Shown in pieces: positions 426 to 9,724 of a DNA stretch of 64,000 nt. The notes under the pieces are model-generated. The model was not told the origin of the DNA. It searched no databases and saw only the letters and a program-made list of their open reading frames with translations. Position numbers and translations under genes: made by a program. Numbering within the stretch: the first letter of the stretch is position 1; every line of letters starts with the position of its first letter. This DNA is from Spirosoma radiotolerans (GTDB lineage Bacteria > Bacteroidota > Bacteroidia > Cytophagales > Spirosomataceae): the NCBI RefSeq assembly GCF_000974425.1, contig NZ_CP010429.1, positions 6,402,501 to 6,466,500 of the forward strand, in the 5' to 3' direction.

Positions 426-1193
426 TTATCGGCTCACGGTCTGTGGGACAGAAGCTGTTTTTTTGCGAAAATCGCCTTGAGAGAAATATTTTTCGATTAG
501 GCAGTACATCAAAATGAAGAAGTAGCGGCTGCCCATTTCTTTGATCTTCAGTTTCGACTCGCCATACTTCCGATTTGTCCAACTGTTCGGCACTACGGCA
601 TATGAATAACCCCGGACGATGGCCTTCAATGGGAGTTCGACCGTTAGGTTGAAATGAGGAGCCAGAAAAGGCTTTATACCCTCGATTGTTTCCCGTTTAT
701 AGAGCTTAAAAGCGTTGGTCGTATCGTTGTATTTGATGCCCATCACCATCCGGACGATAAAATTTGCAATTCGGTTAATGAATTTTTTTAGGGTTGGATA
801 ATCAACCACTTTACCGCCTTTTTCCCAACGGGAGCCAAAAACGGCATCTACATTGGAATCCAGCATTTTGTTGTAGAACCGCACCAAGTCTTCGGGGTCA
901 TCCGAAAGATCGGCCATAAACACGGCGACGCAATCCCCGGAGAATCGTTCCAGGCCATAACGTACAGCGTACCCGAATCCATTCGGCCCGGGATTGGTGT
1001 AATAGACAAGCGTCGGAATCTCCGTTGCAGCCAGGCGTTCGAGGACAGCCAGCGTACCATCTTTCGAGTTATCATTCGTCACACAGATTTCGTGCGGAAT
1101 CCCGTGTTTGGCCAATGTCTGGTAAAGGATACGGAGCGTTGGCGGCAACGACTCTTCCTCATTGTATGCAGGTATGACGACGCTTAGTTTCAT
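426..1193 (-). CDS. GT2 family glycosyltransferase (DPM1/GtrB-like)
   Basis: A GT-A fold family 2 glycosyltransferase of about 255 residues. It begins with the typical SVVIPAYNEEESL nucleotide-binding strand, has a metal-binding acidic motif FMADLSDD, and an acceptor-side stretch PNSWTNRKYGESK like polyprenyl-phosphate mannose/glucose synthases. There is only one possible hydrophobic segment (FFILMYCLIEKYF) and no C-terminal pair of TM helices. I chose the second Met (MKLSVV) at 1193 over the Met two codons upstream because it opens the first beta strand. It is the last gene of the co-directional cluster starting at 7292. Likely substrate is a nucleotide sugar with a lipid-phosphate acceptor; this is family inference. 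Confidence 0.9.
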   Translation of the reverse strand: MKLSVVIPAYNEEESLPPTLRILYQTLAKHGIPHEICVTNDNSKDGTLAVLERLAATEIPTLVYYTNPGPNGFGYAVRYGLERFSGDCVAVFMADLSDDPEDLVRFYNKMLDSNVDAVFGSRWEKGGKVVDYPTLKKFINRIANFIVRMVMGIKYNDTTNAFKLYKRETIEGIKPFLAPHFNLTVELPLKAIVRGYSYAVVPNSWTNRKYGESKLKIKEMGSRYFFILMYCLIEKYFSQGDFRKKTASVPQTVSR

Positions 1194-1222
1194 AAACAAA
1201 AGTAAAAAGAACTATGTCAAAA

Positions 1223-2197
1223 TCAGCTTTTTGGTTTCCAGTGATCAGCCACGTCGGGAACCGCCTGACGAATACGAGCCAGTAAATCGGGGGATAAAGG
1301 GCCTAGTTTTTCAGCCTGACGGTTCGCTAAAACCTGTTTCTCGTTACGCATACCGGGAATTACGACGCCTACCGCTTCAGAAGACAAACTGAATCGCAAG
1401 GCCGAAGTGGCAAGACCACCAGGCTGTTCATCCAGAAAAGCTAGCTTTCGGGCCGATGTTAACAGCCAGTCACGGTCGCGGTCGGGTAAATAATACCGGT
1501 ATTGATCCTGCGGGAAAACTGGATCCTGTGTCAGGTAAGCTGGGTTCAGGAAACCCGATGCTAGGGGCACCCGCCCTATAAACAGGTAATCGCCAGCATT
1601 AGAAGCGGTAAATAGCAACTCTTCCGCCCGACGATCCAACGCGTTATAAATTACCTCCAGCGCGCTACCAAAACCAGCTTCCAGAACGCGCTTGGCTCCA
1701 TATACAGAACGTGAACTAACCCCGTAAGCCCGAATTTTTCCGGCCTGTTTTAGTTTTTCAAAAGGGGTTGGGTCGTAGTTGGCCCAATCGAACGCATCAG
1801 GAGGGCTATGCAGTAAAAGAAGATCGAGCGTGTCTAGACCTAACCGGCTCAGACTTCCTTCAACGGCTTCGACCAGATACGCTGCACTATAATCCTGAGT
1901 CGGCTGGCCGTCCGGCAACTGTCGATTCCCAAATTTTGTGCAAACGAGTTTAGTTAAGTCGGGCTTTTGTGCAAAAGCTTCCTGCAAAATCCGTTCAGAC
2001 TGGCCGCGGCCGTAGCTGTCAGCCGTATCGAAGAAGTTGATACCCTGCTCCAAGGCGCTGTGCACCGCCCGAATGGCATCGGCTTTATCCACTTCGCCCC
2101 AACCGGTTGGGTTACCATTTACAACATTTGGCCCGCCAAACTGCCAGGTACCGAAGCCCAGTCGAGATGTTAGCTGCTCTTTTATGGATACACTCAT
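1223..2197 (-). CDS. Aldo/keto reductase
   Basis: An NADPH-dependent aldo/keto reductase of about 324 residues with a TIM-barrel layout. The catalytic tetrad is visible: Asp and Tyr in FFDTADSYGRGQSE, Lys in VCTKFGNRQ and His in LDLLLLHSPP. The C-terminal cofactor region VVIPGMRNEKQV is also typical. The frame is open upstream to 2248, but that stretch overlaps a terminator-like hairpin (2208-2266), so the ATG at 2197 (MSVSIKEQ) is preferred. In this cluster it may reduce a keto-sugar made by the epimerase or oxygenases; that role is inference. A general detoxifying AKR is the alternative. Confidence 0.92.
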   Translation of the reverse strand: MSVSIKEQLTSRLGFGTWQFGGPNVVNGNPTGWGEVDKADAIRAVHSALEQGINFFDTADSYGRGQSERILQEAFAQKPDLTKLVCTKFGNRQLPDGQPTQDYSAAYLVEAVEGSLSRLGLDTLDLLLLHSPPDAFDWANYDPTPFEKLKQAGKIRAYGVSSRSVYGAKRVLEAGFGSALEVIYNALDRRAEELLFTASNAGDYLFIGRVPLASGFLNPAYLTQDPVFPQDQYRYYLPDRDRDWLLTSARKLAFLDEQPGGLATSALRFSLSSEAVGVVIPGMRNEKQVLANRQAEKLGPLSPDLLARIRQAVPDVADHWKPKS

Positions 2198-2207
2198 AGT
2201 AAGCGAA

Positions 2208-2266
2208 CAGTCTGGTATTGGTTGAATTAGCCAGCAAAGTCGCTTCATTCAACCAATACCAGACTG
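2208..2266 (-). terminator. 20-bp perfect hairpin downstream of the TauD-like gene
   Basis: Perfect inverted repeat: arms 2208-2227 and 2247-2266 (20 bp each) with a 19-base loop. It lies 59 bases past the stop of the TauD-like gene and just upstream of the aldo/keto reductase start. There is no U tract on the minus-strand exit side. It may end or attenuate transcription between the two genes. Confidence 0.65.
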
Positions 2267-2325
2267 CATCTATAGGAATAAGCTTGACTACTCTAAGAAT
2301 AGCCTAAGCATATTCTTATGTAAAA

Positions 2326-3114
2326 TTAATAAACGGCGTCGGCAGCCGGCGTGATAATAATTTTCCCTTTGATGAGGCTGCGCTGACCTGGGAATTCAGC
2401 AAAGAATGCATTACGCCCGTGCATAACCCGGTCATCGTGGAAGAATACGGCCTCGCCTTTCTTCAGTTGAACAGGCAAAATAATACCGGCATTCATGATC
2501 CGACTTTCGAGGAACTGGTGAAAACGCTCGCACATGTCCAGCACTTCCGGTGAATTTTCTTCTCGCGACAGACAGAAGTAGTTCCAGTTGGCCAGATAAC
2601 CTTCTCCGTCTTTATCAATGATCTTCCGCACTTTGCGAGCGCCCCCTTTGGAATGGACAACGTCCGTGCTCATCAACTCTTCCAGTAAAGCGTCTTCGCC
2701 ATCCAGCTTCATGCACTCGATCAAGTTGGGTAAATCAAAGAAGGTAGTTGCCCCACCGATTTTTGCGTTAGATGCACAATAAAAGAAGTTAACGGCCTCT
2801 TCGCCCCCTAACTCAACATATGAATCATCTGTGTGCAAGGGTTGGCGGGTATTGCTAGACCGGTAGCGATCAGGAATTTGTGGATCGTAGGTAATGTCAA
2901 TCCAGCGATTTCCAGTCATCTTACCCGTAGCCAGATCTTCGTCGGCAGCATGAATACGGCCAACCGTTTCCGATAGTTTGCTGTAGAAATCGTGTACGGG
3001 CAGGTCTTCACGGAAATCAGACAGGAAAACCAGTTTATTATTCTGAACGGCTTCTTTTACGTTCTGAATCGTTTCTTCCGGCGTTGTATAGGCAACTTGC
3101 TGAAAAAAATTCAT
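2326..3114 (-). CDS. TauD/TfdA-type Fe(II)/2-oxoglutarate dioxygenase
   Basis: A protein of about 262 residues with a full iron-binding triad of the TauD/gamma-butyrobetaine-hydroxylase superfamily: His94 and Asp96 in LHTDDSY and distal His232 in MHGRNAF, with Arg245 (GQRS) placed to bind 2-oxoglutarate. The ATG at 3114 has a good ribosome site (AAGAGG) 6-8 bases upstream; the frame extends to 3195 only by non-homologous residues. It follows the GT2 gene and precedes the aldo/keto reductase on the same strand. The reaction is probably hydroxylation or desaturation of a small molecule or sugar; the substrate cannot be read from sequence. Confidence 0.88.
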   Translation of the reverse strand: MNFFQQVAYTTPEETIQNVKEAVQNNKLVFLSDFREDLPVHDFYSKLSETVGRIHAADEDLATGKMTGNRWIDITYDPQIPDRYRSSNTRQPLHTDDSYVELGGEEAVNFFYCASNAKIGGATTFFDLPNLIECMKLDGEDALLEELMSTDVVHSKGGARKVRKIIDKDGEGYLANWNYFCLSREENSPEVLDMCERFHQFLESRIMNAGIILPVQLKKGEAVFFHDDRVMHGRNAFFAEFPGQRSLIKGKIIITPAADAVY

Positions 3115-3191
3115 AGCCTCTTTAGTTTCGTTATTTAGTTCACAAAATAGGAAAAGTGTAACAATTGCCCAAATGCGGGTAACCGAGTTAC

Positions 3192-4160
3192 TCAATTATT
3201 TAGAATACGGTGTAGGCCGATAGCCACTACGCCGTAAGCACGCTGTAGAACAGGCGGAGTTAAATGGTCGTAAACAATCGTTTTCAAATCGGGCCAATTT
3301 GGTTTCGCCAGCGAGTAATACTGAGTAACCAGTTTTAACTTTCCCAGGTAAGAACCACGGAACTGCCTGCTCTTCAACATCATCCGATAATAACGGGCTA
3401 TGTTTTTTCTCAGCAGCCGATCATATTGGTAGTTCAGTTCGCGGTTAATATTGCTGTACATATCAATCCGGTTTTGCAGAAAAACGGCGTCATCATACTT
3501 ATCCGTAAAGCTGGTGCCATTGCTGTTTTTCCGGTAGACCGACATGACATCCGGCAAATACCCGATTTTTCCCATCTTGGCTTTCAGAATCAACCGGGGA
3601 ATGTCGCCACTGACTGATTCACTAAACCAGGCGGGATATTCTTTTATAGAATTCCGATACAGCGTACTGGAGGTAGCCATAAACCAGATTTCATCTTCCC
3701 CAATCAAATCTTCTATCGTATAGAAGGGCTTCATATCAGGCCCGTTGAGCACGTGTGACGGACTTCCATCCTCATACGTGATCAGGGCATTATGAAAAGC
3801 CATCGAATAATCGGGGTGAGCGTCCAGCAGATCGACCTGTTTTTGTAGTTTCAGGGGATCAGTCAAATAGTCGTCGCCGTCGATCAACGCATAATATTCG
3901 CCGGTCGCCCGCTTTAGCGTTTCCAGAAAGTTAATCCCGCCATTTTTACCCATGTTACGCGGGTGAAGCACCCCTTTCACTAAGCCGGGATGCTGGCGCT
4001 CGTATTCCTGAATGATCTCCCGTGTACCATCGCTTGAAAAATCATCGCCGACTAAGATTTCGATTGGAAACGTAGTCTTTTGAGCCAGAACACTGTCAAT
4101 GGCCTGGCGAATGAAATTTTTCTGATTGTAGGTAATAATCAGGACACTAACTTTTAGCAT
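3192..4160 (-). CDS. GT2 family glycosyltransferase
   Basis: A family 2 glycosyltransferase of about 322 residues. The N-terminus MLKVSVLIITYNQKNFIRQA is the GT-A start, followed by VGDDFSSDGTREI and the metal-binding LIDGDDYL. The C-terminal third is helical and basic without clear TM helices, so the protein is cytoplasmic or peripheral. The ATG at 4160 is preferred to one nine codons upstream because it begins the first strand. It overlaps the extended upstream frame of the TauD-like gene, which supports co-transcription. The acceptor is unknown; together with the epimerase it suggests glycan assembly. Confidence 0.9.
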   Translation of the reverse strand: MLKVSVLIITYNQKNFIRQAIDSVLAQKTTFPIEILVGDDFSSDGTREIIQEYERQHPGLVKGVLHPRNMGKNGGINFLETLKRATGEYYALIDGDDYLTDPLKLQKQVDLLDAHPDYSMAFHNALITYEDGSPSHVLNGPDMKPFYTIEDLIGEDEIWFMATSSTLYRNSIKEYPAWFSESVSGDIPRLILKAKMGKIGYLPDVMSVYRKNSNGTSFTDKYDDAVFLQNRIDMYSNINRELNYQYDRLLRKNIARYYRMMLKSRQFRGSYLGKLKLVTQYYSLAKPNWPDLKTIVYDHLTPPVLQRAYGVVAIGLHRILNN

Positions 4161-4229
4161 AACAATCGGGATTCGGTTTATAAACAACCGCTAAAGCGGC
4201 TTCTTTGTCTATAAACCGTAAGCTATAAA

Positions 4230-5054
4230 CTAAACAACAGCCTCCGACGTAGCGTTTTTAGCCGTCTGAATCTGCGCTTTCCAACCCTGTGGTTCTTCTT
4301 TATCGGCGGGTGTTGCCCAGGGATCATAGAATGGTAGAATAGCCACCCAACGTCCGGCAGGATCATCCCAGCTAAAGCGATCAGCAAAACTTGATGGGCT
4401 AACCCAGTGCGGTAAATCATACCGGAACAGGATCAAATCGCCAATATCCTGGAAACCTTCTGTTTCAACGATATGGTCATTGATAACGTAGCCGGTTCCA
4501 CCGGATGTGTAATCCTTTCCGTACTGATTCAGCGCTAGAATCGTGCCTACTTTCTGCGGGTTGAGCGGGTGCCAGTGCCGACCGAAGAAGCTTCCTCCCA
4601 AGGGGTAGTGCGTTACCTGCGGGTGAAAGTAAGGCTGTCCTTTGCGAATGCCATATTCTTCGTTATTTCCGGTTAGGTCATTCCAGAATTGGCGCATTGG
4701 CGTGAAAACCTGCATAAGCTGTTGCTGCGTTGGCTCTTCAAGATCCAGAATGGCATCGAAGGTATGGTCATGAAACAATTGCGGTGCCTGCTGAATCTTG
4801 GCAATGTGCAGCCGCTGCTTATGCTGATTGTTGTCAAATGGGTCAGGACCTTCGGCTAACGGCGTTTTAGAGGCCCATTCGTGGGTTGTCCTGATAACGC
4901 TCCGCAATGTCTCCTCCGGAATGCCCGTTTTAATGATAACAATGTTTGGCTCATTGACCAATCGCATCACTTCTTCATAGGGAACTTCAGGAACGATTCT
5001 GCCGTCCTTGAACTCCGCATCAATTTTTATCAGGTATTTTGCAACTTCTTTCAT
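4230..5054 (-). CDS. Fe/2OG-oxygenase-like protein with altered iron motif
   Basis: About 274 residues with a double-stranded-beta-helix oxygenase pattern: a HYPLGGSF strand, a conserved YGKDYTSGGTG loop, GDLILF, a distal His216 (DLPHW) and Arg235 (GRWVAI) in the positions expected for iron and 2-oxoglutarate. Where the canonical HxD/E motif should be, the sequence reads H160-W-H162, so the acidic ligand is replaced by His or lost. That could mean a changed metal site, a halogenase-like open site or a non-catalytic role. It sits between the propeller gene and the GT2 gene. The family assignment is inferred from motif order; the substrate is unknown. Confidence 0.65.
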   Translation of the reverse strand: MKEVAKYLIKIDAEFKDGRIVPEVPYEEVMRLVNEPNIVIIKTGIPEETLRSVIRTTHEWASKTPLAEGPDPFDNNQHKQRLHIAKIQQAPQLFHDHTFDAILDLEEPTQQQLMQVFTPMRQFWNDLTGNNEEYGIRKGQPYFHPQVTHYPLGGSFFGRHWHPLNPQKVGTILALNQYGKDYTSGGTGYVINDHIVETEGFQDIGDLILFRYDLPHWVSPSSFADRFSWDDPAGRWVAILPFYDPWATPADKEEPQGWKAQIQTAKNATSEAVV

Positions 5055-5167
5055 AGCAAAAAACGTATAAATGCGCGACTACCCGCGGCTGTTTTTACTT
5101 ATTTAAATTGTGTCACAAAGTAGGGCGGTATCTGGGGAAAACACAACCCTCCCGATACTGATTTTCA

Positions 5168-6130
5168 TCAGCCTGCGGGCTGAGTTGCGTAGCCAAATCC
5201 CGATGCACCAAATCCATTTCCGTTATACAACATTACCCACTGGTCGTTCTGTTTGAAAATGTGGCAATAGTCCATCATCATTGAGTCCCAGCCCTCTGCT
5301 GACCGTTCGATTCCCGCCTGATCATCTTTGCGCTCCCAGGTGATGCCATCTTTCGATTCGGCGTACCCAATTCGGTAACTCCGCTGAACATCGGTCCGGT
5401 AGTTGGTCGCATTGCGATACGAAAAATACATTTTGTACAAATCGTCACCACTCGAATCGGTATCTTTATACACCGTTGGCCGACCAATGGCATCCGTAAA
5501 CTGATCGTAACCAACACAAACGTGGCCGGTACGTTTCCAATTGAGTCCATCGTTCGACTCGGCGTACTTCACGTCGTAAAAAGGTTCGGGATGACCATTG
5601 ATCACCTCGATCTTTGTACATGAAAGGTACCACATCCGCCACCGGATGGAGCCATCGGCCTGCTCTTCTCGCATAACGCAGGGTTGTGCAATCCAGACCT
5701 GGTCATAGATGGACCGATCAAGAATTGGTCCCGTATATTTCCGTTCAAAGGTCAGCCCCCCGTCACGGCTAATAGCCAGGCCAATGGAAAGCCGATAACT
5801 GGCCGTTTCGCTTTTGTTCCAGCCCGTGTAATACAACCAGATTTCGTCACCTACAGGTAAGAACCAGGAAGGCATGGTTCCTGTTTCGTCAAACATGCCA
5901 ACAGCGCCCTTTGTCAGGCACGGTTTGTCATGAATATAGATCACCTCAGACAGATTATCGGGATTCAGTTCAACGAACGAAACAGCCGACGCAACTTCGT
6001 CATCGCGGGTAGAAAAATAGACCCGCACTTTATCCGCCATTGGATAACCAAAGGGAACCTGCGCGTGGGTGCGGCTAAATGGTTTCGAACCGTCGGGTTT
6101 ATAAACTAGTCCTTGCTTTTGCCAGGTCAT
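5168..6130 (-). CDS. Beta-propeller glycosidase-like protein (GH43/32/130-like fold)
   Basis: About 320 residues with no signal peptide, so probably cytoplasmic. Three copies of the blade motif xxSxDGxxW/F are visible near residues 118-129 (AISRDGGLTF), 190-199 (AESNDGLNWK) and 257-266 (AESKDGITWE), as in five-bladed propeller glycosidases and phosphorylases. I cannot identify a full catalytic acid/base set. The cytoplasmic location and cluster context suggest it acts on or senses a sugar intermediate rather than degrading extracellular polymer. It could be a glycoside phosphorylase-like or non-catalytic enzyme. Confidence 0.7.
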   Translation of the reverse strand: MTWQKQGLVYKPDGSKPFSRTHAQVPFGYPMADKVRVYFSTRDDEVASAVSFVELNPDNLSEVIYIHDKPCLTKGAVGMFDETGTMPSWFLPVGDEIWLYYTGWNKSETASYRLSIGLAISRDGGLTFERKYTGPILDRSIYDQVWIAQPCVMREEQADGSIRWRMWYLSCTKIEVINGHPEPFYDVKYAESNDGLNWKRTGHVCVGYDQFTDAIGRPTVYKDTDSSGDDLYKMYFSYRNATNYRTDVQRSYRIGYAESKDGITWERKDDQAGIERSAEGWDSMMMDYCHIFKQNDQWVMLYNGNGFGASGFGYATQPAG

Positions 6131-6157
6131 TCGGATCAGGTCTTCTATAAGGTTAAA

Positions 6158-6212
6158 TACCCACCATCTTCCGGCCGTATTTTATAGTGACACGGTCGGA
6201 AGATGATGGGTA
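6158..6212 (-). terminator. Hairpin downstream of epimerase gene
   Basis: Arms 6158-6178 and 6192-6212 (21 bp) match except for two positions that form G-U wobbles in RNA. It lies 7 bases past the epimerase stop and before the propeller gene start. No strong U tract. It may act as an attenuator inside the cluster. Confidence 0.6.
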
Positions 6213-6218
6213 CGTTTA

Positions 6219-7292
6219 TTAAATCGTTGGGGCTAAGCGGGAAACCATGCTGCTGTGGATTTGCGACATTGTCTCCTTTAGATCAAATGTCCAGTCCCAG
6301 CCGGGATAGTGCTGTTTGAACTTAGTCAGGTCGGAAATATACCAGATATGGTCACCGCTGCGGTTGGTTTCCGAATATTGGTAGTTCATCTTGTTGCCCG
6401 AAATTGTCTCGCAGAGCGCAATGGCTTCGAGCATGGAACAGTTCGCATACCGGCCACCGCCTGCATTGTAGACTTCGCCCGGACGCGGGTTCTGGTAAAA
6501 ATGCCAGAACATATTCACGAGATCCCAGCTATGGATGTTGTCCCGAACCTGCTTGCCTTTATAGCCAAAGATGGTATACTGATTTCCGGTAATGGCGCAT
6601 TTCATCAAATACGACAGAAATCCATGCAACTGGGCGCCGGAGTGATTTGGGCCGGTTAAACAGCCACCCCGGAACACACCGGTATTCATTCCAAAATACC
6701 GACCATATTCCTGCACCATGATATCGGCTGCTACTTTCGATGCACCAAAAACCGAGTGTTTGGTATGGTCGAGGCTCATGTGTTCATCGATCCCGTTTTC
6801 GAAATAGGGATGGTCGTGATCAATTTCCCAGCGTGTTTCGGTTTCGATAAGCGGCAAAAAGTTAGGGTTGTCACCGTATACTTTATTCGTCGATGTAAAA
6901 ATAAACACAGCCTCGGGACAGTGCAGGCGGGTCATCTCCAGCATGTTGAGGGTCCCAACAGCATTAACGCCAAAGTCGGTAAATGGCTCACGGGCGGCCC
7001 AGTCGTGGCTGGGTTGAGCGGCCGTATGTAACACCAGTTTAATATCGGTGCCGAATTCCTGGAAAATTGTTTCCAGTTGAGCTACTTCCCGAATATCGGC
7101 GGACCGGTGCTGGTAATTGGTATACGCTTGGGCCAGGCGGTTGCGGTTCCATTCTGTTGAGCCATCGGCGCCAAAGAAGTACTGCCGCATATTGTTGTCT
7201 ATACCAACAACTAAATCAAATTTATCCGCGAAGAAGGCCACCGCTTCGCTACCGATCAAACCGGCAGATCCCGTAACTAATGCAATTTTCAT
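6219..7292 (-). CDS. NAD-dependent epimerase/dehydratase, CDP-paratose 2-epimerase-like
   Basis: An extended short-chain dehydrogenase of about 357 residues. The NAD motif TGSAGLIG is at residues 7-14, followed by GIDNN and the substrate-side motifs STNKVYG (about 134-140) and RGGCLTGP. The overall pattern recalls the CDP-paratose/tyvelose 2-epimerase (RfbE) group. The usual catalytic YxxxK reads F182-G-A-S-K186 here, so the Tyr is replaced by Phe. The ATG at 7292 starts the NAD-binding strand; upstream codons are non-homologous. It is first in the minus-strand cluster, and probably provides the nucleotide sugar used by the downstream glycosyltransferases. Substrate specificity is not proven. 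Confidence 0.85.
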
Positions 7293-7966: not shown

Positions 7967-9724
7967 TCAGTGGGCCGGGTTCTTCAGGCGTTCAATTTCT
8001 GACCAGACAAAACCTATTAACTCCTGGATATGCTCATAGGAAAAGTCGAATGGCACATCGGCGGCTGCATATATCTCCCGAATGGGCGCTTTATAACCCA
8101 GACTTAACGCACTCTTGTAGCCGGCCAAACCCGCCTTTGGGTCGCGCCGGTAATTGCGCCACACGCCAATGGCACCTAATTGGGCAATACCATATTCGAT
8201 GTAGTAAAATGGCACTTCATACAGGTGTAACTGCCGCTGCCAGATGTATTCCTGGTAAAACGCAAAGCCGTCCCAACTGGTAACCGTATCGGCAAACTGA
8301 TTGTAAATCCGGACCCAGTTTTCACCTCGTTCAGCGTCCGTATGCGTCGGGTTCTCATAAATCCAGTGCTGAAACTTGTCAATCGTGGCTACCCAGGGCA
8401 GCGTCTCAATGATGGATTCGAGGTGCTGAAGTTTGGCGCGACGCAGTTCATCCGGATTATCAAAAAATACATCCCAATGATCCATCGATAATAACTCCAT
8501 ACTCATAGACGCTAATTCAGCAACTTCCATGGGCGGATTCCGAAAGGCTTTCAATGACAGATCACGCGTGAGAAACGAGTGAACGGCATGGCCACCTTCG
8601 TGTACCATCGTGACCAGATCACGCAGGCTTGACGTAGCATTCATGAAAATGAACGGCACTCCAATTTCTTCGAGTGGGTAGTTGTATCCGCCCGGTGCTT
8701 TCCCTTTTCGCGACTCCAGATCAAGGTGACCCATGGCGCGCATGATGCGCAGGTCGTCACCTAGTTCACGATCAAGCCGATCAAAACACTCGATTGCTTT
8801 TTCGAGGAGTTCGCTTCCGGTCGAGAACGGTTTCAACGGCGCGCGACCTTCTAAATCGACCTTGGCGTCCCAGGGCCGGAGCGGGTCAACTGAAGGATCA
8901 GACGCCTGTAACTTTAGTTTGCGTTCTTCGGCGAGCTTGTTCACGAAGGGCACAACGGCCTGCGCTACGGAGTTATGAAAATCAAAGCAGTCCTGCGGAC
9001 TATAATCGAATCGACCCAGAGCCGCAAACGCGTAATCGCGAAAGTTATCGAAGCCAGCATTCAGAGCAATTTGATTTCGCAGATCGCGCAACCGGTCGAA
9101 AAGCTGATCAAGCTCCTCATGATCCTGATAACGCCGTTCCCAGATTTTGCGCCAAGCCTCCTCCCGCACAGCCCGGTCCGTCGATTGAAGTCGGTCACTG
9201 GCTTCGGGAAGGGTCATTTCGCGGCCGTCAATCGTTACAGTCATCGCCCCAACGATTGCTCCGTATTTGCGCTCTTCGGTCTGAAGTTCGGTTTGGAGCG
9301 GGACATTTTCATCTCGGTAAATCTCAATAGCCTTCTTCATTCCCCGCACCATTACATCGTAGCCATCGTCGGTTAGCTGGCTTAGGAACGGGCTGTTCAC
9401 GGCTTTCAGGTCCAGCTCGTTTCCATAGGTCGTCATGGGTGGCTGAATGTCTGAAATGAAGAAATTCAGTTTATCCACCAAATCTTCATTGGCGGTATCG
9501 CAAGTCATGCGAATGTACCGCCACGCAAAATTTTCGGATAAGTACGACTCCAGTTCGCTCCGGTCAATCAGCCATTGTTTCAGTTCTTCGGCATTGTCAA
9601 TCGAGCGATCCAGCAGTTCTTCATAAAGCGGCTTTACATCATCCCAACTGCTTAGTTCAATGGTTTCCCCAATGAATGAGCGTGTTGGCCGGGCCGGCAG
9701 GTTTAGGGTTTGATTTGCTGTCAT
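7967..9724 (-). CDS. M3 family oligoendopeptidase (PepF-like)
   Basis: A zinc metallopeptidase of 585 residues, the normal length for M3 oligoendopeptidases. The zinc site is His375-Glu376-Gly-Gly-His379 (VHEGGHAVHSF), followed about 25 residues later by the Glu-rich helix EVAELASMSMELL that supplies the third ligand. No signal peptide, so it acts in the cytoplasm on short peptides from proteolysis. It is divergent from the BlaI-like gene and shares the 163-bp intergenic region with it. It ends close to an otherwise empty 170-bp gap. Confidence 0.93.
   Translation of the reverse strand: MTANQTLNLPARPTRSFIGETIELSSWDDVKPLYEELLDRSIDNAEELKQWLIDRSELESYLSENFAWRYIRMTCDTANEDLVDKLNFFISDIQPPMTTYGNELDLKAVNSPFLSQLTDDGYDVMVRGMKKAIEIYRDENVPLQTELQTEERKYGAIVGAMTVTIDGREMTLPEASDRLQSTDRAVREEAWRKIWERRYQDHEELDQLFDRLRDLRNQIALNAGFDNFRDYAFAALGRFDYSPQDCFDFHNSVAQAVVPFVNKLAEERKLKLQASDPSVDPLRPWDAKVDLEGRAPLKPFSTGSELLEKAIECFDRLDRELGDDLRIMRAMGHLDLESRKGKAPGGYNYPLEEIGVPFIFMNATSSLRDLVTMVHEGGHAVHSFLTRDLSLKAFRNPPMEVAELASMSMELLSMDHWDVFFDNPDELRRAKLQHLESIIETLPWVATIDKFQHWIYENPTHTDAERGENWVRIYNQFADTVTSWDGFAFYQEYIWQRQLHLYEVPFYYIEYGIAQLGAIGVWRNYRRDPKAGLAGYKSALSLGYKAPIREIYAAADVPFDFSYEHIQELIGFVWSEIERLKNPAH

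Follow-up and report, generated by a model that had tools for sequence, protein, structure and literature searches.

What do seven adjacent genes of Spirosoma radiotolerans (Bacteroidota, Spirosomataceae), a mixture of sugar-active enzymes and candidate oxygenases, make together? The genes lie at positions 426-7292 of the window, that is, of the whole 64,000-nucleotide stretch analysed here (contig NZ_CP010429.1, positions 6,402,501-6,466,500), in a genome that forms one contig of 7.03 Mb. All seven open reading frames (ORFs) are on the minus strand, co-directional as the sequence-only reading of this DNA had claimed, with intergenic gaps of 29-128 bases. In the order of transcription they are EPI, a relative of the epimerase TyvE; PROP, a propeller protein; OXA, a putative Fe/2-oxoglutarate (2OG) oxygenase; GTb, a glycosyltransferase; TAUD, a second oxygenase; AKR, an aldo/keto reductase; and GTa, another glycosyltransferase.

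The set is probably a unit for the assembly and tailoring of a surface glycan in the Spirosoma lineage, the single steps being less certain. A surface-glycan locus looks to be of a known kind, and it is the two altered active sites, in EPI and in OXA, that look worth testing. No publication on the seven-gene set or on either active-site change turned up among the literature matches listed. In this respect the claim that the cluster has no obvious counterpart stands; in genomes, close counterparts occur across much of the family.

Conservation of the gene set

The closest named relatives, judged by OXA, are Spirosoma species. Of 30 OXA loci compared by tblastn (own-genome L001 and L002 and the short L116-L124 were excluded), 26 have PROP ahead of OXA and 29 have GTb behind it; GTa is present in 26 and EPI in 23. 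The counts include L012, L022, L027 and L029, which end at contig borders. The general architecture in the genus is EPI, followed by a GT-C-like gene, or by genes for a short-chain dehydrogenase/reductase (SDR), a membrane protein, a GT2 protein and AsnB, or by nothing; then PROP-OXA-GTb; then TAUD-AKR or nothing; and finally GTa. Homologues are syntenic through the genus, and thus the scattering without synteny that had been named as a refutation is not found there. PROP is widespread: of the 150 genomes searched in the family, 118 have it, from 29 of the 36 genera, each with a single match at E 1e-30.

The Spirosoma-type set, with its gene order unchanged and at 67-85% identity, is also carried by a record that bears the title Flavobacterium sp. 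SUN052 (L019). Either the name of this record may be wrong or the set may have been transferred.

Oxygenases in the slot after PROP

We examined 51 PROP loci from 50 genomes, many of them short. As they combine one genome from each of twenty hand-picked genera with the best 30 matches of the family search, whose loci mostly extend about 1.5 kb to either side, the counts do not come from a random sample. Read onward from PROP, the first recognised gene is OXA in 22 genomes (in one of them as a 48-residue remnant), PhyH in 16 and GTb directly in nine; three genomes have none of these. Some oxygenase is therefore found in the slot in 38 of the 50 genomes, and OXA and PhyH were not seen together at any of the PROP loci examined. 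The PhyH protein of L151 passes PF05721 with 72 bits (cut-off 22), and all 16 PhyH rows aligned, from 15 genomes, have His133-Gln-Asp135 and His213. The gene order in L209, EPI-SAMMT-PROP-PhyH-GTb-TAUD-AKR-GTb-GTa, matches that of the window except that PhyH stands in for OXA and that a methyltransferase gene and another GT2 gene are added.

On the PROP tree, which omits L199 (same genome as L219) and L195 (genome G367, where PROP has no adjoining OXA), the presence of OXA needs 4 changes, compared with 16.4 in shuffles. The distribution fits one gain and three losses in a 25-row clade, which has modest support (86/77) and a long-branch warning. Given the slot occupancy and this pattern, the oxygenase step seems to be old in the family, and OXA probably took over the slot in the Spirosoma lineage. 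The exchange supports an oxygenase step acting on the glycan or its precursor. The sequence-only reading had proposed synthesis and transfer of a modified deoxysugar: the gene content fits an oxidised sugar, but no gene was matched to a 6-deoxysugar step. If correct, the locus would show in a specific instance how oxygenases modify a glycan of bacteria, and the natural swap of two oxygenase types in one slot could be used for finding the product. KdoO is an example of an oxygenase that acts on a glycan.

The OXA remnant is at 1340-1483 of L172, where PROP and GTb flank it; this genome, G417, has no intact copy.

The apparently altered metal motif of OXA

OXA (4230-5054, minus strand, 274 residues) contains the pattern H160-W-H162...H216...R235. 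The window protein has no Pfam match up to E 10, and the 2OG-FeII_Oxy_3 model is not matched; PF13640 is weakly matched by 13 of 24 aligned OXA members (best E 0.0038). The OXA profile (A1) found weak, unrelated matches only among solved structures. Comparison of the structural model hints at the double-stranded beta-helix fold of Fe/2OG enzymes: all 50 rows listed by VIA are Fe/2OG enzymes, the best being PHD2 (Z 8.5, root-mean-square deviation (rmsd) 3.9, 172 residues), and so are Foldseek ranks 1-11 (best E 0.07), with unrelated folds below. The mean pLDDT of the model is 66, and about 40-55 around the metal motif. There are few OXA relatives outside the lineage, so no deep alignment was possible and the model stayed poor.

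OXA does not show the HxD...H motif. When OXA is aligned by hhalign with a P4H-like (prolyl 4-hydroxylase-like) protein of the same genome, H160-W-H162 is matched with HxD, and the distal His with H216. The same alignment was obtained by hhalign against 28 ORFs picked by the HxD...H pattern, and hmmsearch against this set again placed H160-W-H162 on HxD. The two comparison sets overlap, and the scores are weak (hhalign probability below 1%, E 0.14-0.19; hmmsearch best E 0.085). None of the 24 OXA sequences departs from H160, H162, H216 and R235, but 125 of the 275 columns are invariant as well. We take R235, by eye and from the P4H-type pattern, to be the 2OG-binding Arg. On moderate fold evidence, the HxD of 2OG oxygenases seems to be replaced by HxH in OXA, which differs from PhyH and TauD proteins in this and in matching no Pfam family. 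Three histidine ligands in a 2OG fold would put to the test how far the carboxylate ligand can be dispensed with. Of the two Fe/2OG-oxygenase-like proteins claimed earlier, TAUD is well founded, with HTD...H intact, and OXA is the weaker one, with its HxH and low-confidence model.

OXA is present in 33 of 36 genus genomes, in 10 of 241 order genomes (profile A1) and in two of 395 phylum genomes, the own genome being included in the latter two counts. Searches of plasmids and phages gave no OXA relatives, and none was confirmed in viral_contigs. A lone OXA paralog (67%) of Spirosoma terrae, at 10001-10822 of L032, has neighbours that by eye resemble respiratory-chain genes.

EPI and the Phe-type SDR clade

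EPI (6219-7292, minus strand, 357 residues; PF01370, 6.2e-32) is a TyvE-like extended SDR. Among solved structures its best relatives are two CDP-tyvelose 2-epimerases, 9rl0 and 1orr, and the match to 9rl0 (1.5e-37 over residues 5-333) indicates full-length SDR homology. Phe182 of EPI aligns with Tyr164 of TaTyvE, so that the catalytic Tyr of YxxxK is replaced. In the excerpt of PMC13098431, Tyr164 is the proposed catalytic base. TyvE contacts the sugar by Val83 and Met85 (backbone) and by Gln205, according to the excerpts of PMC7851689 and PMC13098431 that give residue roles.

EPI retains the extended SDR architecture, Thr135-Asn136-Lys137 (TNK), Lys186 of YxxxK and GKQVRD. It differs from TyvE not only by Phe182 but also by Pro94-Ser95-His96 for Val83-Ala84-Met85 and by His223 for Gln205. 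The cytidine-side residues are not kept either: Tyr203, Asp204, Trp207, Trp210 and Phe211 of TyvE correspond to Q221, L222, F225, Y228 and L229, with aromatic character retained at two positions only.

The loci examined contain 119 full-length EPI matches. Phe182 is present in 116 (53-100% identity to the window protein; 78 distinct sequences), and the remaining three, at 31-32% identity, carry Tyr. Positions P94, S95, H96, D97, T135, N136, K137, F182, K186, C211, L222 and H223 are fixed in all 78 distinct sequences, and H217 is kept in 77. The hosts of Phe-type proteins belong to four phyla and include Bacteroidota, Deinococcus, Azospirillum, Paracoccus, Burkholderia and Nostoc; among 395 phylum genomes, 25 have EPI relatives at E 1e-80, the own one included. 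Among the matches listed, members of this clade are annotated as 'NAD-dependent epimerase/dehydratase' or not at all.

Thus EPI is, by sequence, a member of a TyvE-like SDR clade with Phe for the catalytic Tyr. We considered the Phe as a sign of a decayed enzyme and rejected this, since neither Phe182 nor the pocket around it varies in any of the 78 distinct sequences, which span 53-100% identity; Phe is the mark of a clade. The earlier description of an epimerase with a non-catalytic-looking Phe was accurate as to the residue and not as to a dead enzyme. We infer that the His96-Asp97 pair or His223 takes over as the base. Naming this large clade matters, as its acid-base chemistry cannot be that of TyvE as written.

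The neighbours of EPI relatives are mostly of glycan type. A WecB/TagA/CpsF-type gene adjoins them in Persicobacter, Deinococcus, Azospirillum p2 and Paracoccus, and also in L070, L071, L156 and L157; GTa is one to two genes away in L067, L068 and L074. Further relatives lie within runs of different genes, and in L152 and L166 many of these look glycosyltransferase-like. The Burkholderia relative sits between amino-acid adenylation genes, and in L069 no glycan genes are near apart from an AsnB-like one.

The S. radiotolerans genome has a second EPI copy, 85% identical (G000:C1:5261436-5262506; L065 9434-10507), divergent to a WecB/TagA-like gene in a separate region with glycosyltransferase-like genes. 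Tyr-type TyvE-like SDRs lie few genes from Phe-type EPI in three loci (L067 8853-9932, L068 616-1680, L078 about 12415), and therefore the two types may share one pathway. In the peptide-synthetase locus of Burkholderia stagnalis (L080), the Phe-type EPI is immediately preceded by a gene (8466-8990) whose annotation reads aspartyl/asparaginyl beta-hydroxylase domain protein, a further type of oxygenase next to EPI.

The propeller protein PROP

PROP (5168-6130, minus strand, 320 residues) is predicted to be a five-bladed propeller with the fold of GH43, GH130 and GH32. Its AF2 model (pLDDT 74) scores Z 23-26 with all 50 chains listed by VIA, all three families among them; the values are 26.1 for 9fj8 (266 residues, rmsd 2.7) and 26.4 for the GH43 chain 4qqs. 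The sequence match to GH130 is weak, 16.6 bits, and does not reach the curated Pfam cut-off of 26. Hence PROP shares the five-bladed propeller with GH130 mannoside phosphorylases and with GT108, and differs from GH130 in falling below the Pfam cut-off and in scoring equally with GH43 chains. GT108 proteins are dual mannosyltransferases/phosphorylases with a five-bladed propeller, as described in the excerpt of PMC8476585, and PROP is likened to them by that description only. PROP has no hydrophobic 19-residue stretch and no membrane segment, which agrees with its earlier description as cytoplasmic. A loss of GH130 catalysis in PROP, considered on the basis of a motif, was dropped, as the alignments leave the residue unfixed.

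More distant PROP relatives, at 32-44% identity, are found in DegT/WbqC/acetyltransferase loci; in Bernardetia, Tateyamaria and Rhizobium plasmids these contain glycosyltransferases.

GT2 proteins, the TAUD-AKR cassette and the GT-C-like gene

The claim of two GT2 transferases and an aldo/keto reductase proved right, since GTa and GTb pass the PF00535 cut-off and AKR that of PF00248. GTb occupies 3192-4160 (minus strand, 322 residues; PF00535, 1.4e-26). GTa (426-1193, minus strand, 255 residues; PF00535, 4e-26) has profile matches to the DPM (dolichol-phosphate mannose) synthase 5mlz (2e-24) and to sll0501 (5e-16), indicating homology of the catalytic domain, and has no hydrophobic 19-residue stretch and no membrane helices. 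It is predicted to be of the polyprenol-phosphate sugar synthase type.

TAUD (2326-3114, minus strand, 262 residues) belongs to the TauD/TfdA family of 2OG oxygenases by its PF02668 score, 53.7 bits with a cut-off of 27, and by an intact HxD...H, with H94, D96 and H232 invariant in 8 of 8 sequences. It is present in eight of 36 genus genomes. AKR (1223-2197, minus strand; PF00248, 2.6e-49 with the ORF taken from 2194) adjoins TAUD in all seven loci where the contig continues, and L203 has a 55% identical AKR without TAUD. TAUD-AKR is an optional cassette.

A GT-C-like gene lies about 4 kb or less from OXA in 20 of 33 genomes, as counted by hand from positions. Its product has many hydrophobic stretches and no Pfam match, 'GT-C' being a label given by eye. 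TAUD and a GT-C-like neighbour co-occur in none of 8 cases (hypergeometric 9e-5, kinship ignored). The window set has no adjoining GT-C-like gene; a 35% homologue is about 3.6 Mb away on the contig.

Proposed pathway and alternatives

The pathway that we consider probable may be outlined as follows. EPI, as a Phe-type TyvE relative, would convert a nucleotide sugar. GTa would transfer a sugar from its nucleotide donor to polyprenol phosphate, and GTb would add a sugar to the growing lipid-linked glycan in the cytoplasm. The oxygenase of the slot, OXA here and PhyH in other genera, would oxidise the sugar or its lipid-linked form. TAUD could be a second, optional oxygenase in this genome and, together with AKR, carry out further oxidation and reduction. 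PROP may bind or transfer a sugar by its GH130-like propeller, perhaps as a transferase that uses a sugar phosphate. The order of the steps, the acceptor and the final location of the product are as conditional as the reactions themselves. A sharper statement about both active sites is tentative, and in its entirety rather doubtful: EPI would represent a widespread Tyr-less class of nucleotide-sugar SDRs with a new acid-base residue, most likely His96-Asp97 or His223, and OXA would be a three-histidine oxygenase of the 2OG fold which, in the Spirosoma lineage, took the place of canonical PhyH within the same glycan pathway.

Several observations weigh against the glycan unit in this form. PROP has no adjoining oxygenase in 12 of 50 genomes, or 13 counting the remnant, and the 21 PROP loci outside the OXA lineage show EPI in four cases and GTa in eight. 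PROP and OXA are on different contigs in G367, and L026 and L030 contain OXA-GTb-TAUD-AKR-GTa without EPI and PROP in the stretch examined. These splits mean that the set is separable and that the seven genes need not occur as one unit. Indeed, with TAUD-AKR confined to eight genomes of the genus and EPI visible at few PROP loci of other genera, the earlier assumption of one pathway for all seven genes is not supported. Second OXA copies (67-68%) occur in two of 36 genus genomes, and the one context examined, L032, lacks cluster genes nearby. The OXA model is poor at the metal motif, and a Z of 8.5 is not far from what chance arrangements give. Finally, no flippase, polymerase, ligase, transport or export gene was recognised in the set, and thus the glycan is assigned by association.

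One possibility is that OXA is a pseudo-oxygenase which, with HxH for HxD, no longer oxidises and acts with PROP as its binding or regulatory partner. HxH is invariant in 24 of 24 sequences, PROP occurs without an oxygenase neighbour in some genomes, and a full OXA is missing from three of 36 genus genomes, although one of these, G417, retains the remnant and another, G405, is an 80%-complete assembly. On the other hand, all the putative metal and 2OG residues are invariant, which is a weak argument because the sequences are 67-91% identical, and in sister genera a canonical PhyH holds the slot of OXA. We find the pseudo-oxygenase rather unlikely. Somewhat easier to accept, though still tentative, is a patchwork in which PROP, its oxygenase and GTb form a conserved unit, EPI and GTa an independent pair and TAUD-AKR an inserted cassette, all sharing a place but not one product. 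EPI and GTa are close together without PROP in the stretches of L067, L068 and L074, most of the 21 other PROP loci have PROP-GTb without a visible EPI, the cassette is rare in the genus, and G367 has the set split. However, gene order and strand are conserved through the genus, and partly in L209, L212 and L219.

Two further explanations concern the product. It could be a small glycolipid or a secondary metabolite, as the lack of recognised export machinery nearby and the adenylation genes around the Burkholderia EPI relative would allow. This is unlikely: most other annotated contexts carry glycosyltransferase or nucleotide-sugar genes (L069 is an exception and L081 is unannotated), one EPI-relative context has Wzz and O-antigen ligase, and the presence of PROP in most family genomes suits a structural glycan. 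Even less probable, in our view, is that the core sugar of the Bacteroidota protein O-glycan has GTa as its synthase and the exchangeable GT-C-like membrane protein as its transferase, with the other genes decorating it. The excerpt of PMC12871550 calls the core O-glycan machinery of Bacteroidota unidentified and resembling eukaryotic O-mannosylation, and both the DPM synthase match of GTa and the hydrophobic GT-C-like protein near OXA would agree with that. However, a core enzyme is expected phylum-wide, whereas EPI, the partner of GTa, is in 25 of 395 genomes; the GT-C label has no Pfam match behind it, and the gene is absent beside the window set. The O-glycosylation locus (LFG) described in that excerpt also has conserved end genes and a variable middle. 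The window set, likened to it by description only, differs in its flanks and in having no recognised flippase.

Other features of the locus

The glycan unit that we prefer also contains two inverted repeats. A perfect one of 20 nucleotides is in the TAUD-AKR gap (2208-2266) and may form a hairpin; another of 21 nucleotides, 90% complementary, is in the EPI-PROP gap (6158-6212). An alternative ATG of AKR at 2248 falls within the former hairpin, and hence the AKR start is best set at 2197. The GTa end of the set abuts a convergent gene for a small hydrophobic protein (2-418) that has no Pfam match, and about 670 bases from the EPI end there is a gene that by eye resembles an M3 peptidase.

Stems are seen in the TAUD-AKR gaps of relatives as well (L003 4041-4100, L004 12754-12955, L006 4185-4244, L017 12654-12703). 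With the window, all five loci have a stem of 20-45 nucleotides, the sequences being largely different; those of L003 and L006 have one arm start in common. This looks like conservation of a hairpin in the TAUD-AKR gap rather than of its letters.

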